From Flavobacteriia bacterium (GTDB lineage: Bacteria > Bacteroidota > Bacteroidia > Flavobacteriales > Schleiferiaceae), in NCBI GenBank assembly GCA_009921445.1, contig RFXV01000002.1, forward strand, positions 1 through 37,849: DNA of 37,849 bases, written 5' to 3'. Under the pieces are notes generated by a model, which worked only from the letters and a program-made list of their open reading frames with translations, did not search any database and was not told the origin of the DNA. Shown in pieces: positions 13,124 through 37,779 of the stretch. The position numbers were made by a program, and so were the translations under genes. Every line of letters starts with the position of its first letter. Position 1 is the stretch's first letter.

Positions 13124-16100
13124 TCAATTGCCTGGGCTGAGGTTGAAATACACGGAGCCATGATTGGAGGAGGAGGCGCTGTTCTGGCTGTAACGAGACA
13201 GGGGAGCACCGATCAGCACATTTCCTGCTCCTTCCGATAGATCGTGTCCGAAACGCATTCCCGCAGCGGCATCGGGAGCAGAGATGACCCCTTGATGGAT
13301 AAAACTGCTTCCGTTCCAAGTGTACTCATGCACCTGTCCAGCTCCCTGATCAGCACCTTCCGAACCCACCAAAAGCTTTCCGCTTTGGAGCGAGTAGGAC
13401 AAGGCGCTGCCAAAATGATCTCCGCCCTGGGGTTGTGGAGCCTGTAGGACCTGTGTTTCCATCCAGACCGAACCGATCAATTCAAAGAGATAGACCTTCT
13501 CTGCATTGGGGTCGCCCACAAGCAGTGTGCTTCCTGCACGGCAGACGGAATGTCCGAATCTCCTTCCGCTGCTCCCATCCGAGGCGAACAATTGCTGACT
13601 GATGGCCAGACTGCCATTGATCAGTCGATACAACACCACACTTCCCTGACCATTGTGACCAGGCGCGCCAACGACGAGCGTATCGTTCTTTAGGTCCATG
13701 GCCGCTCCGAATTCACTTGTACCCAGAGATGAGAAGGAAGTCTCAGTTGCTGTGAGCATCCATCCGCTCGTCTGCTTCTGGTAGATGAACAGCTTTGGCT
13801 GTACGGAAGGTGCAGCAACGATAAGGGAACTCCCATCCATCGCCAATTCCTGTCCAAAATCCTGACCGATCTGAAGACACCCATTGTCCAAGCGAATTCA
13901 AACGGTGGAGATACACCTTTCCACTGTTGGATTCTCCAGGTGCAGCCACAGCTAATCGATCGTCCTTGATCTGTACGGAAGCACCGAAGAGATCGCTTGC
14001 GGCTCTGTCCATGGCCTGAAGTCGCTGCCATTCGACCCATTGACCATTTTTTTGGTGGAAGACATACGCGGCCCCCACATCGCTCAGAAAACCGTGGTCG
14101 ATGGTGTCGTAGCGCTCTGCATAGTCACCTGTACGTCCCGGACTGCCGGACACGGCCCAGTTCTGATCGACATCCACGGCTTCACCGAACCGGTCGCGGA
14201 AAGGGGAATAACTGTATGGCACGATCTGCACGGCTGTCGGTGCACATGCTTGCAGGGTGTGGCTGCCCAGAGAGTCGTATGCATCGTTACTCAGCGCATG
14301 CCATTGCAACCTAAGACGCGACCAAAAGGCTGTTCCCACGCGAATGCTGTCTGCCCGCACCAGGGTGACGTTTTGAATATTGTGCACCACGCCATTGTCG
14401 ATGATGGTGTGGTTCACACCTCGATTGTTCGGATCGCCGATGCGGTCGATGGTATCGCCAGTGGCCAGCTCGATCAAGCTGGTGAGGTCATTTCCATTGA
14501 AGCTCAAAGCGCTTCCCGATCCAGAAACAGCATCGGCCCGGTTCAAAAAAGCAGGAGCAGCTGAACTGTTGCATACGACAAATTGTGCTCCGGCATTCAG
14601 CGTACCCGAAAGCGAAGTGCTGCCAGAATAGCCCGTGGCATTGTAGGCCGTATAAAGCACAAAATCGCCGAGATCGAGTGTGGAATCAGAGGTGTTGGTG
14701 AGCTCAAGGCACTTGTTGTTGGACGATCCCTCGATGTATTCAGAAATGATCAAGCCTCCAGAGCAATTCCCTGAACCGACCTGTCCGGGTGCACTTCGTG
14801 TTTGCATCTGAACCGAAAGTGCTGCGCCCATGGCATCGGTTGAACCGCTTTGAACGGCATAGAGGAACGCCTGTGCGTAATAGGTCGTGCCCGCTTGCAA
14901 TCCGGTCACCACCAGTTGCGCATCCTGCGCATTCTGGCTGTTGTACACGCAAAAGGCAGAGCCGCCGCTGACCGAAGCGCTGCTGCCTGCCCCCATTGAG
15001 GTAGAGGGAGAATACAGAGAAGCTTTTTGGCTGTTTTGCTGCCAGATACCATTGATCGGATGTTCCGAGAGGAAGACGATCGTTCCGTCCCAATCGACGC
15101 CATGACCCGAACCCGGTTTGTCCATGGTCAGAATGGCCTTGTCCGTCCCGCTGCTGTCTGCGCTGAATCCATCCAGGGCCGGAGGAGCAGGACCTCCGAC
15201 CATACCCCCTCCATTGGAAGCGATATATACCACGCGGTTGGGATGGCTCGGTGAGGAGATGTTCAGGGCCGTCGGGCCAAATGCTGAATTTCCTGTGGCA
15301 TTCACAGTCAGGCAATACGATTGGTAGGCAACGATCTGACTGGGAAGACTGCCCAGCTGAAAGTGGGTATTCTGCCCACTGCTTCCACTCAGTTGGAGGG
15401 TTTGATCGCCCGTATTGATCAGGCTGATGCATGCCTGTTCATTCTCGCTCAGCCAAAGGGTGTCGGGAAAGACCTGCCAGTCGCTCACCGGATTCAGGTT
15501 GGCCTGTCCAGTGAAGGATCCCAGGCGTTCTTCCATTTGGGGGTAATCCACCAATGGATTTCGATTGTTCTGCAACTGGTAAATACCCTGGTTTCGCGTC
15601 TTCTCTGCAGCGTCGGGAGGATCGTTCAGATGCCATTGCCTGAGTACGCTCTCCATCCCGGAAATGAAGTTCTGATAGTCGCCATAGCGCAGGGCGAAAT
15701 ACAGAAGAGCCCGAGCCGAATTGCCTTTTTGAACATCCCTGGGTTCGAACAGTCCGGATGCGTATTTCGAACCTCCGTTCTGCCAGGTGGGATTGGAGAC
15801 ATGTCCAAAAGGGTAGTTGCTTCGAACCGAATTGGCCGTGGCATCGCTCGGGAAGAGGCAGTGGATGTCGCTCTGCATCGGGAAGGCGCTGCCGAAATAG
15901 GATTGCGGCATGGTGTGCTCGCAATTGATGTTGTTCGCATTGGCCCCCGACCGTGTGCTGAAAAAGGCCGTGCGACCGGTGTAAACACAGCTGACTGCTC
16001 CCTGATTGTTGTCCAGCTGGGCGTACATATTATCCCGTGCACTGTTGTAGCTCAGTTGGTTGTAGTTCTGTGCCAGAAGGTTTTGAAGCTGATTCTTCAG

Positions 16101-16514
16101 CGCCTGACCGCTCAGTCCCTGGGTGCTGTTGTAGTAGGTCTTGGAATAGCTCCCTTGCCCCTGAAGGGTGACCGGGACGGATCCGTAATGAGAATCAGTG
16201 TGGAAGATCAGTGGAAGCGTATAGTCGATGTTCTGTCGCGGCCTGAAGTAGACCTGAACGTTTCTCTGCCCTCCGGCCGGAATGCTGAAGACCGAATCAC
16301 TCAGCCAGCAGATCTTTCCGCTGAACGGCCAAAAGGCATCGTAGCCATTCACTGAAACGGTTTGGTTGCCTTGGTTGTACAGGGTCAGTGTGCGGCTGAC
16401 CGTGGAGCTTTCCGTTGCTGTTCCAAAATTCGTTGAACCCGATACGATCAGGCTTTGTCCCCATACAGAAAGCGTACAAAAAACCGATGTGAGGATAGAC
16501 AGGAAGAATCTCAT
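13124..16514 (-). pseudogene. Secreted endonuclease I family protein with lamin-tail domain and FG-GAP-like repeats, split by a frameshift near 13861-13895
   Basis: ORF 13743..16514 (signal peptide, ASH-like domain, endonuclease I core NINCEHTMPQSYF...DIHCLFPSDATANSVRSNYPFG, lamin-tail LIISEYIEGSSNNKCLELTN, first FG-GAP repeats) loses its frame; the repeats continue in ORF 13124..13891. Confidence 0.75.
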
Positions 16515-19973: not shown

Positions 19974-20426
19974 ATGCAATTGCCGGAATTGGAACTGCCC
20001 GAGCACCCTCAGCGTTTGCGGGAGACGGATGGGCTTCGGGAGATTTGGGATCCCATCAGGCGGCAATTCCTCAAGCTGACGCCAGAGGAATGGGTCCGTC
20101 AGAACTTGCGGGCGCACCTGGTCAGAGACAAAGGATTTCCGGAACAACTCATGCAGATGGAACGGGGTCTGAAGCTCAATGGCATGCAAAGAAGGACCGA
20201 TCTATGCGTCTATCGGCAGTCCCGCTGTGTGTTGCTCATCGAGTGCAAGGCGCCCAGTGTGCGGCTGGATCAAAAGGCATTCGATCAGCTCAACAGATAC
20301 AATCTGGTCGTCAAAGCGCCCTGGGTGCTTTTGAGCAATGGTATTCACCATATTGCGGCCCGTATAAAAGAGACGGGACCGGTTTTCGTCAAGGACATCC
20401 CTCATTACAATGATCTGACCCAATGA
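19974..20426 (+). CDS. stand-alone HsdR N-terminal-like domain protein (PD-(D/E)xK nuclease fold)
   Basis: 150 aa; D-x(n)-ExK signature RRTDLCVYRQSRCVLLIECKAP; no helicase domain attached. Confidence 0.8.
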   Translation: MQLPELELPEHPQRLRETDGLREIWDPIRRQFLKLTPEEWVRQNLRAHLVRDKGFPEQLMQMERGLKLNGMQRRTDLCVYRQSRCVLLIECKAPSVRLDQKAFDQLNRYNLVVKAPWVLLSNGIHHIAARIKETGPVFVKDIPHYNDLTQ

Positions 20427-21600
20427 AAAAGTGCTATCTAAAAAAAGGAAAGGACCGAAGCGTATTGCGTGGACATCCGTGGGTGTTCTCCGGAGCGCTC
20501 AAAGCCGAAGTGGAAACAGCGGGGGAGTGGATGGAACTCTGCGATCATCAGGGGACGTCCCTGGGTTTGGGCTTCACCGAGAAAGGAAGTATTGCCTTCA
20601 AGTGGATCGGAAGCGCTTTTTCTTCGCCTGCGCAGGCGATTGTTACAAGGCTGCAAGAGGCGCACAGGCTGCGAATGGACCAGGGGCTTGTGGATCGAAA
20701 GGATCTGGACATCTACCGCCTGTTCTTTGCAGAAGGAGATGGTCTTCCTGGACTGATCATCGACAGCTACGGCGCACATGCCGTTGTGCAGCTTCACTCC
20801 CGTGCCTATCTGGAACATCTCGAACTCATCACCGAACAACTGGCGCAGCTGGGTTATCGGTCGGTCTATCTCAGACAGCGAAGCAGTCTTCGGGATGAAA
20901 AGATGGAAGATGGCTATCTAAAAGGCAAAAGAGAAGAAGAAATCTTTTTGGAGAACGGCATTCCATTCCATGTAGACTGGGAACAGGGGCAGAAGACCGG
21001 CTTGACTGGGAACAGGGGCAGAAGACCGGCTTTTTTATCGATCAAAGAGACAATAGGCAGCTGGTCAGGCAGTTGGCATCGGGAAAGAATGTACTCAATG
21101 TGTTCTCCTACACCGGTGGCTTTTCTTCCTATGCGCTGAAGGGAGGAGCGCGATCAGTGGTGAGCTTGGACAGCTCCCAGAGTGCGGTAGAAATGGCCTG
21201 CAGGAATGCCGGTCTGCTCGATGCTGCCCATAAGCATACAGGCCTTACTGAGGACGCATTTGATTACCTGAAGAAAATGCCCGAGGGCTTCGATCTGGTC
21301 GTTCTCGATCCGCCTGCCTTTGTTAAAAGTCCGAGAAGTCGCCATCGGGCAGTGCAGGCCTACAAGCGGATCAACGCATGGGCCATGAAGGCCATGCCTT
21401 CTTCTTCCACCTTGCTCACCTTCTCGTGCAGTCAGCACTTGGGTCGCGAGTTGTTTGCTTCCACCGTCCGGGCGGCGGCCATCGAGAGCGGGAGGGAAGT
21501 TCGCTTGCTTCAACACCTTCAGCAGTCTGTGGACCATCCCAGCCGAATGGAACATCCGGAGGGCGAATACCTCAAGGGTTTGCTCCTGCATCTGAAGTGA
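20423..21600 (+). pseudogene. rlmI: RlmI-like class I SAM-dependent rRNA methyltransferase, frameshifted by a 29-bp tandem duplication
   Basis: ORF 20423..21139 (PUA: KGKDRSVLRGHPWVFSGAL...) and ORF 21073..21600 (GKNVLNVFSYTGGFSSYALKGGA..., LDPPAFVKSP) are one gene; removal of one 29-bp copy gives 1149 nt = 383 codons in frame with motif WEQGQKTGFFIDQR. Confidence 0.88.
20975..21032 (+). repeat. Perfect 29-bp direct tandem duplication (gactgggaacaggggcagaagaccggctt x2)
   Basis: Copies at 20975-21003 and 21004-21032 are identical. Confidence 0.98.
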
Positions 21601-34748: not shown

Positions 34749-35336
34749 ATGTTTCTAGAGCAAGGAGTCAATCCCCAGATGCAGGGAGGTTGGATCGAGG
34801 TCATTTGCGGTTGCATGTTCTCGGGCAAGACCGAAGAGTTGATCCGCCGTCTGCGGCGGGCCGAGATCGCGGGTCAGCGTGTGGTGATCTTCAAACCCAA
34901 GGTGGACGATCGTTACTCGGAAGACCATGTGGTCTCTCATGACAACCGTTCCATTCCCTCCGTGGCCATCGATCGGCCGGAGGCGGTCTGGGACCACAAA
35001 GACAGTTTTGATGTGGTGGGGATCGATGAGGCGCAGTTCTTCGACGTGTCCATCGTACAGGTCGTCAGTGAGTTGGCCGATAAGGGTCATCGCGTGGTGA
35101 TCGCAGGTCTCGATCTGGACTATACTGGCAAGCCGTTCGGGCCCATGCCCGAATTGCTCTGTTTGGCAGAATATGTTTCTAAGGTGCACGCCATTTGTCG
35201 CAGAACAGGCAATCTCGCTCATTACAGCCACCGAACCGATGAAAGTGATGAATTGATCGCTCTGGGGCATCAGGATCATTATGAACCGGTTTCCCGAAGG
35301 GTGTTCCTGGAATTGAAACGCACCCATGAAAAATGA
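34749..35336 (+). CDS. tdk: thymidine kinase
   Basis: GCMFSGKTEELIRRLRRAEIAGQRV P-loop, VGIDEAQFFD, RRTGNLAHYSHR. Confidence 0.95.
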   Translation: MFLEQGVNPQMQGGWIEVICGCMFSGKTEELIRRLRRAEIAGQRVVIFKPKVDDRYSEDHVVSHDNRSIPSVAIDRPEAVWDHKDSFDVVGIDEAQFFDVSIVQVVSELADKGHRVVIAGLDLDYTGKPFGPMPELLCLAEYVSKVHAICRRTGNLAHYSHRTDESDELIALGHQDHYEPVSRRVFLELKRTHEK

Positions 35337-37779
35337 TGGGATCGGGCTGAAGGAGATCGCCAAACGCATCAATGGCAGGGTGGAAGGGCCCTTGACCGAT
35401 GAACCCATCCGGCATTTGATCCTGGACAGCAGAAAATTCCAAGGCCGTCCCAATGCATTGTTCTTTGCGCTGAAAGGGGAGTCGCATGATGGGCATTTCT
35501 TTCTGGGCGAACTCTATCAAAAAGGCCAAAGACGATTTGTGGTGGAACGGATGCCTGAAATACCGCAGCCCGATGCCACCTATATTCTGGTGGAAGATGC
35601 GCTCAAGGCTTTACAGCAGCTTGCTGGCAGTCATCGCAAGCAATTCAATTGTCCCGTGTTGGCGATCACGGGCTCCAATGGCAAGACGGTCCTGAAGGAA
35701 TGGGCCCACCAGCTCATCGGCCCGGACAGGCGGATGGTGCGCAGTCCAAAGAGCTACAACTCTCAGGTAGGAGTTCCACTCTCCTTATGGGCCATGAGGG
35801 AAGACCACGAATTGGCGGTCATTGAGGCCGGCATCAGCCGACCTGGTGAAATGGAGAGGCTGGAACGCATGATCCGTCCGACCATTGGGATCATGAGCAA
35901 TATCGGCTCGGCCCATCAGGAACACTTTGCCAAGATCGGCGACAAGGTGAAGAGCAAAATGGCCCTTTTTCGTCGGGCGGAGTGCCTGATCTATTGCGCA
36001 GATCATCCGCTCATTCGCAAGAGAGCGCAAAAATCAGGAGTCGAGCGTCTGATCGACTGGTCCGCACAAGGTCAACCAGCGGAAGTTCAGTTGATCGACC
36101 AAAAGATCCGCAAGGGATTTACACATTTGAAGGTTCGGTCCGCCGGAACAGAGGTGGTTTTTCGCATTCCATTCACCGATCAGGCATCTGTTGAGAATGC
36201 CATGCACCTGTTCTGTTTGTGCAGAGAATGGGGTCTGTCCAAGCAGAAGATACAGCGTCGGATGTCTGCTCTTCAGGCGGTGGATATGCGCCTCGAACTG
36301 AAGGCGGCAAGGGAAGATGCATTGCTGATCAACGATTCCTATAATTCAGATCCCGAATCTCTTCGGATCGCATTGGATTTTATGGGCACCCACAAGAAGC
36401 GCCGTCCCTCCGTTCTGCTGCTTTCGGATATGGTGGACCAAATAGAAGAGGATTGGGTAGAACGTGTGGTGGCACTTGTAGAGGAAAAGAAGATCGATCT
36501 GTTCATCGGGGTCGGCCCGGTTCTTCAGCGGAACGCAGATCGATTTCCAGATTCTTCGCACTTTTTTTCGAACACTGCAGATCTGCTGGGTCGTTGGTCC
36601 GAGATCCACTGGTCATCCAAGATCATTCTGTTGAAAGGCGCCCGGCGCTTTGCCTTTGAGCAGATCCGCAACCGCCTGGAGTACAAACTGCATCAGACCG
36701 TTTTGCGCATCGATCTCAACGCCCTGTCGGAAAACCTCCAAAAGCTTCGGATGGCGCTGCGTCCAGAGGTGCGCATCATGGCGGTGGTGAAAGCCTTCAG
36801 TTATGGAGCGGGGAGTGTGGAAGTGGCTTCCTTGCTTCAGTTCAACAAAGTGGACCACTTGGCCGTGGCCTACGCGGATGAGGGCCTCGCCTTGCGTCGT
36901 TCGGGTGTTCGCCTGCCCATCATGGTGATGAATCCCGATGCGGACTCATTTCCAGCTATGATCGAAAATGAACTGGAGCCGGAGATCTACAGCTTTAGCG
37001 TGCTGCAGCAGTTCATAGATGCCCTGAAGCAGACCAATTACTCCGGCGAGCGCAGACCGGTACACATCAAGCTGGATACGGGCATGCACCGATTGGGTTT
37101 TGTCGAGGAGGATGTCCATGCACTCTGTTCCATTCTTCAAAGTGAATCCCAATTGCATGTGGCTTCTGTCTTTTCTCATTTGGCAGCCAGTGAAGATCCG
37201 TCGCTCAAGAGGGAGACTTTGATCCAGATCGAACGTTTTCGAGCCATGAGTGCGCAACTCAGTGAAGCCGTTCCCTATCCTGTCTGTCGGCACATACTCA
37301 ATTCAGCGGGCATTCGAAACTACCCGGAGGCTCAGTTCGATATGGTGCGCACAGGCATTGGCCTCCACGGATCAGGGGAGCAGAGCGGACGTCCCGTGGC
37401 CACTCTTTTGACGCGCATCAGCCAGATCAAGATGCTGCGCAAAGGCGATGGGGTGGGCTATGGTTTTTCCTACTCTGCACCAAATGACATGCGCATAGCT
37501 ACTTTGTCCATCGGGTATGCCGATGGCTTCGATCGTCGCTTGTCCAATGGAGTGGGGCAGGTCTACCTCAATGGACATCGCGCAGAGGTAGTGGGCAAGG
37601 TGTGCATGGATCTCTGCATGGTCGATGTGACCAATATTCCTTGTCAGGAGGGTGATGAGGTGGAAGTCTTCGGAACGAACATACGGGTGGAGGAGGTGGC
37701 TGAACGCATGGATACCATTCCCTATGAGGTTCTGACCTCCATTTCGCAACGGGTCAAGAGAATTTACGTTCAGGAGTGA
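35326..37779 (+). CDS. murF-alr: bifunctional UDP-N-acetylmuramoyl-tripeptide:D-Ala-D-Ala ligase / alanine racemase
   Basis: MurF part: LAITGSNGKTVLKEW, NDSYNSDPESLRIAL; Alr part: RIDLNALSENLQKLR...MAVVKAFSYGAGSVEVA, HIKLDTGMHRLGF, SIGYADGFDRRLSNG. Confidence 0.95.
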   Translation: MKNDGIGLKEIAKRINGRVEGPLTDEPIRHLILDSRKFQGRPNALFFALKGESHDGHFFLGELYQKGQRRFVVERMPEIPQPDATYILVEDALKALQQLAGSHRKQFNCPVLAITGSNGKTVLKEWAHQLIGPDRRMVRSPKSYNSQVGVPLSLWAMREDHELAVIEAGISRPGEMERLERMIRPTIGIMSNIGSAHQEHFAKIGDKVKSKMALFRRAECLIYCADHPLIRKRAQKSGVERLIDWSAQGQPAEVQLIDQKIRKGFTHLKVRSAGTEVVFRIPFTDQASVENAMHLFCLCREWGLSKQKIQRRMSALQAVDMRLELKAAREDALLINDSYNSDPESLRIALDFMGTHKKRRPSVLLLSDMVDQIEEDWVERVVALVEEKKIDLFIGVGPVLQRNADRFPDSSHFFSNTADLLGRWSEIHWSSKIILLKGARRFAFEQIRNRLEYKLHQTVLRIDLNALSENLQKLRMALRPEVRIMAVVKAFSYGAGSVEVASLLQFNKVDHLAVAYADEGLALRRSGVRLPIMVMNPDADSFPAMIENELEPEIYSFSVLQQFIDALKQTNYSGERRPVHIKLDTGMHRLGFVEEDVHALCSILQSESQLHVASVFSHLAASEDPSLKRETLIQIERFRAMSAQLSEAVPYPVCRHILNSAGIRNYPEAQFDMVRTGIGLHGSGEQSGRPVATLLTRISQIKMLRKGDGVGYGFSYSAPNDMRIATLSIGYADGFDRRLSNGVGQVYLNGHRAEVVGKVCMDLCMVDVTNIPCQEGDEVEVFGTNIRVEEVAERMDTIPYEVLTSISQRVKRIYVQE

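Follow-up and report, generated by a model that had tools for sequence, protein, structure and literature searches.

In the window, by which is meant the whole stretch of 37,849 nucleotides analyzed here, an RlmI-like methyltransferase gene is thrown out of frame by the doubling of 29 bp, and this doubling is probably an error made at an assembly junction (Table 1). Given that at least five other genes of the same draft genome, fabH included, are broken by gaps of 20–65 bases, a mistake in assembly is the most likely origin of the extra copy, not a switch. Two neighboring pieces sharing an overlap of 29 bp would have been butted end to end with the overlap retained twice, and the same fault, where the pieces were separated by a short stretch left unsequenced, would produce the 22–64 bp deletions that break the other genes. 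In the living cell, the methyltransferase gene is probably single-copy and intact.

Table 1. Features of the window and of other contigs of the draft; locations without a locus handle are window positions, and G002 is the sister genome
Feature	Location	Strand	Remark
29-bp unit, copy 1, GACTGGGAACAGGGGCAGAAGACCGGCTT	20975..21003	+	Tandem Repeats Finder and comparison with G002
29-bp unit, copy 2, identical to copy 1	21004..21032	+	Array of exactly 2.0 units
RlmI-like methyltransferase gene as assembled, 5' part	20423..21139	+	PUA-like domain and linker, 238 aa
Methyltransferase gene, 3' part, original frame	21033..21600	+	SAM-binding methyltransferase domain, dN/dS 0.06
T TTT TTA heptamer	21031..21037	+	Phase lets a −1 shift regain the frame of the gene
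HSDR_N-type gene, upstream of the methyltransferase gene	19974..20426	+	Stop overlaps the methyltransferase start (ATGA)
Endonuclease I/lamin-tail/FG-GAP protein gene, broken	13124..16514	−	Split here; open frame of 1151 aa in G002
26-bp deletion relative to G002	13877..13878	−	Breaks the endonuclease I/lamin-tail/FG-GAP gene
TPR protein gene, 44-bp frame-breaking deletion	L098:12312 (G000:C213)		Relative to G002
PiT phosphate transporter gene, 22-bp frame-breaking deletion	L029:1758 (G000:C5)		Relative to G002
fabH, ~57–64 bp lost with frame change	L089 ~12378 (G000:C125)		FabH residues ~90–108 missing
Urocanase gene split near the N terminus, frame change	L085 ~17505 (G000:C91)		~8–14 residues lost

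The array at 20975–21032 is the sole row returned by Tandem Repeats Finder for the window (period 29, 2.0 copies, 100% match), which bears out the original prediction of two identical units lying head to tail. By chance, a perfect 29-bp tandem would be expected only ~1.6 × 10−13 times in the window, which rules out a chance repeat. The array measures exactly 58 bp with an excess of 0, and the bases before and after it differ; comparison of these flanking bases revealed no microhomology (shared bases) at the ends of the duplication. There is no inverted repeat at the unit either, and a palindrome-driven duplication is thereby rejected. In ~934 kb sampled from the same genome, no further exact tandem repeat has units of 13 bp or longer, and a search of viral contigs for an independent sighting of the two-copy junction found none. 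The frameshift that had been proposed for the methyltransferase gene is likewise present, the distal half being open in another frame: the assembled reading frame is out of phase from the second repeat copy on, affecting its last ~44 aa. Deletion of one copy restores WEQGQKTGFFIDQR and leaves 382 residues plus a stop, so that the 383 codons given earlier are correct with the stop counted.

The interrupted gene, which is followed by gluQRS, matches PF17785 in its proximal part and PF10672 in its distal part, with a PUA-like domain preceding a SAM methyltransferase domain as in RlmI-like (COG1092) proteins. With the COG1092-type 23S rRNA m5C methyltransferases (NF011707, NF053718, NF033380), the gene shares the PUA-like N-terminal domain, the GQKTGFF.DQR motif, and the SAM-binding C-terminal domain, and its orthologue can be aligned with them over the full length; unlike them, it misses all equivalog cut-offs by a wide margin, and the gene is broken in the assembly. 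The intact orthologue of the sister genome G002 scores 236.4 bits against NF011707 (RlmI; cut-off 712) and 238.7 bits against NF053718 (23S C1962 methyltransferase; cut-off 575), and is thus not an RlmI equivalog by these models. It aligns full-length to the C1962, C2499, and RSP_2647 models while missing all curated cut-offs by far, and it is no nearer to the RlmI/C1962 models than to the C2499 enzyme. The rlmI label of the original prediction therefore survives as RlmI-like, a name that these model matches justify, but not as RlmI itself; since the scores lie far below the curated RlmI and C1962 cut-offs, they leave the target nucleotide unassigned. No second methyltransferase copy or paralogue that would cover the loss was found in this genome.

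Among relatives, the sister genome (~89% DNA identity) has exactly one 29-bp copy at the same place in an open frame. The gene occurs in 24 of 88 family genomes (20 of the 56 good ones), and in all 23 of these genomes other than that of the window, it is a single open frame with no repeat at the site. Because it was not found in the remaining 36 of the 56 good genomes, the gene is dispensable in the family, and Escherichia coli tolerates the loss of its RlmI, although it then grows more slowly (PMC7056703). The dN/dS values against the sister genome are 0.08 before the repeat and 0.06 after it, with 0.04–0.22 in six neighboring genes; by this measure, neither side of the repeat shows relaxed selection, and the 3' part shows no decay.

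The methyltransferase gene is not the only broken gene of the window. The endonuclease I/lamin-tail/FG-GAP protein gene, open in the sister genome and in three further genomes (G001, G003, and G004), is split by the 26-bp deletion, which lies 7.1 kb from the 29-bp repeat on the same contig. The deletion sits at an inverted repeat (CCTGAAG...CTTCAGG), and the segment of the sister genome that is lost corresponds to its loop and right arm. For each of the two breaks, selection appears intact in the sequence to either side. An alignment of 157 kb with the sister genome shows no indel above 12 bp apart from the 29-bp duplication and the 26-bp deletion; of the 115 orthologues tested against it, the two genes of the window are the only ones with a broken frame, neither through a 1-bp indel. 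As a separate observation, ~2.3 kb at L026:10053–12364 correspond to 27 bp in the sister genome (L142) and may be a mobile element. Elsewhere in the window, the ORF at 34755..35453 on the minus strand shows protein-level conservation in 31 of 37 relatives, yet has many stops in most of them, and probably only mirrors a gene read in a different frame.

A dicodon frame-switch scan, with the two window breaks as positive controls, covered 934 kb of this draft and 330 kb of the sister genome. Both controls were recovered, among 39 flags in the former compared with four in the latter; many of the 39 are natural gene overlaps, and the four in the sister genome all have out-of-frame tails of 50 bp or less. 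Four further genes proved to be broken, encoding a TPR protein, a PiT phosphate transporter, FabH, and urocanase. fabH, which serves fat synthesis and is normally essential, is intact as a 334-aa orthologue in G001, and its break could involve microhomology of at most 7 bp (GCAGCCG). A second FabH homologue, 40% identical, is encoded at G000:C230. Three other flags were rejected as breaks: L049:12900 aligns to the sister genome without a large indel, the oligopeptidase B at L053:4990 is complete, and L129:2182 marks two different adjoining genes. Companion indels of a size similar to the 29-bp repeat thus occur elsewhere in the draft and are commoner than in the sister genome used as a control, where the equivalent scan found no comparable event in its 330 kb.

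The draft itself is a fragmented metagenome bin, with 276 contigs totalling 1.9 Mb and a completeness of 88.6%. Of its 63 contigs shorter than 8 kb, 31 are sized at exact multiples of 30, and 18 more deviate by one base in either direction, whereas none of the 40 contigs of the sister genome, of any size, falls on an exact multiple. This pattern shows that the draft was put together unusually. By inspection, no link was seen between the 30-base pattern and the positions of the breaks, and among the sampled contigs no end overlaps were found that would reveal the k-mer of the assembler.

Taken together, six frame breaks of ~20–65 bp within roughly half of a single genome are hard to explain by biology. 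None of them is a single-base event, selection is normal where measured, and fabH is among the genes hit; a biological origin is therefore unlikely, and assembly junctions fit, with a gap lost at each of the five deletions and an overlap retained at the duplication. An array of exactly 2.0 units without microhomology is what an uncollapsed overlap is expected to leave. Assembly junction errors, whether from an uncollapsed overlap or a lost gap, resemble the present case in the exact duplication without microhomology, in the companion short deletions elsewhere, and in the unaffected selection signal; unlike joins seen directly in reads, those proposed here are inferred from the assembled sequence. 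Several points speak against an artefact. The draft is otherwise accurate, with no 1-bp frame break among the 115 genes, and most of the breaks are deletions, with the 29-bp repeat as the one duplication among them. De Bruijn assemblers working with a large k normally yield no 29-bp tandems without scaffolding or gap closing, steps that are undocumented for this draft. Inverted repeats commonly give rise to true deletions, and the one at the 26-bp deletion, together with the possible microhomology at fabH, favors real mutations. Several of the broken genes are also of dispensable types, and some of the breaks could be real.

Among the alternatives, a real but very recent and one-off loss of function deserves the most attention, even though it is rather unlikely. 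Here, a short tandem duplication arising through end joining or slippage would have frozen the gene out of frame too recently for decay or reversion, with no regulatory role. That the family can dispense with the gene, that E. coli tolerates the loss of RlmI, and that the downstream part is free of decay, as a fresh event predicts, all agree with this account. It would, however, require at least six mid-size frame breaks, that of fabH included, to have arisen freshly and independently in one genome, where the sister genome shows no comparable event in 330 kb; moreover, slippage lacks the microhomology it would use, and the Ku gene for end joining was not found in the draft, which is 88.6% complete. 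Far less probable is the reversible ON/OFF switch of the original prediction, taken here as a toggling of the methyltransferase when the two units slip or recombine with each other. A perfect 29-bp tandem can indeed collapse to one copy with exact restoration of the frame, and reversible mutations of the duplication type are known in other organisms, namely the microhomology-mediated tandem duplications reviewed for fission yeast (PMC13207564) and a duplication-plus-inversion revertant of Staphylococcus aureus (PMC6686034). The fission yeast events are similarly short, exact, frameshifting, and collapsible, but the present array, at its exact length, lacks the flanking microhomology pair that would enable the repeat to form anew. 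Simple-sequence contingency loci, which vary in phase through repeat slippage, likewise carry, within a reading frame, a unit whose length is not divisible by three; in contrast to their many short units, there are only two long ones here, without an array, and neither presence nor variation of a repeat was seen in the relatives, the 23 intact orthologues all lacking it. The ~934-kb genome sample offers no further repeat of this kind. To our knowledge, a housekeeping-type RNA methyltransferase is also not a usual contingency gene.

A broader version, in which the duplication is real and reversible, the population toggles, and the other mid-size indels mark a lineage prone to short events, is just as improbable as the switch. 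Least probable of all is that the break is bypassed by a programmed or leaky −1 frameshift at T_TTT_TTA, so that a full-length enzyme lengthened by ten residues would be made. The phase of the heptamer is right, and the predicted product is a continuous 392-aa frame, but the heptamer consists simply of the conserved Phe-Phe codons of GQKTGFF, the RNA downstream does not exceed its shuffles in structure (z = 0.32), and the added residues would land inside the invariant GQKTGFF.DQR motif. The heptamer is accordingly judged coincidental. Of the three interpretations that had been offered for the repeat, the assembly artefact is the best supported, through the companion frame breaks and fabH; the very recent event is less likely; and the switch finds no support, there being a single extra copy and no variation at the site across the 23 intact family orthologues.

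If the doubling is an assembly error, the draft breaks genes by indels of 20–65 bp, and the lesson is a practical one: losses and pseudogenes read from it, including those of fabH, the phosphate transporter, urocanase, and the methyltransferase, would need support from reads. If it is real, it would mean that an rRNA methyltransferase which the family can do without was freshly lost in a single event. Either way, the repeat is of little biological interest, and it is of use as a caution on the draft genome.
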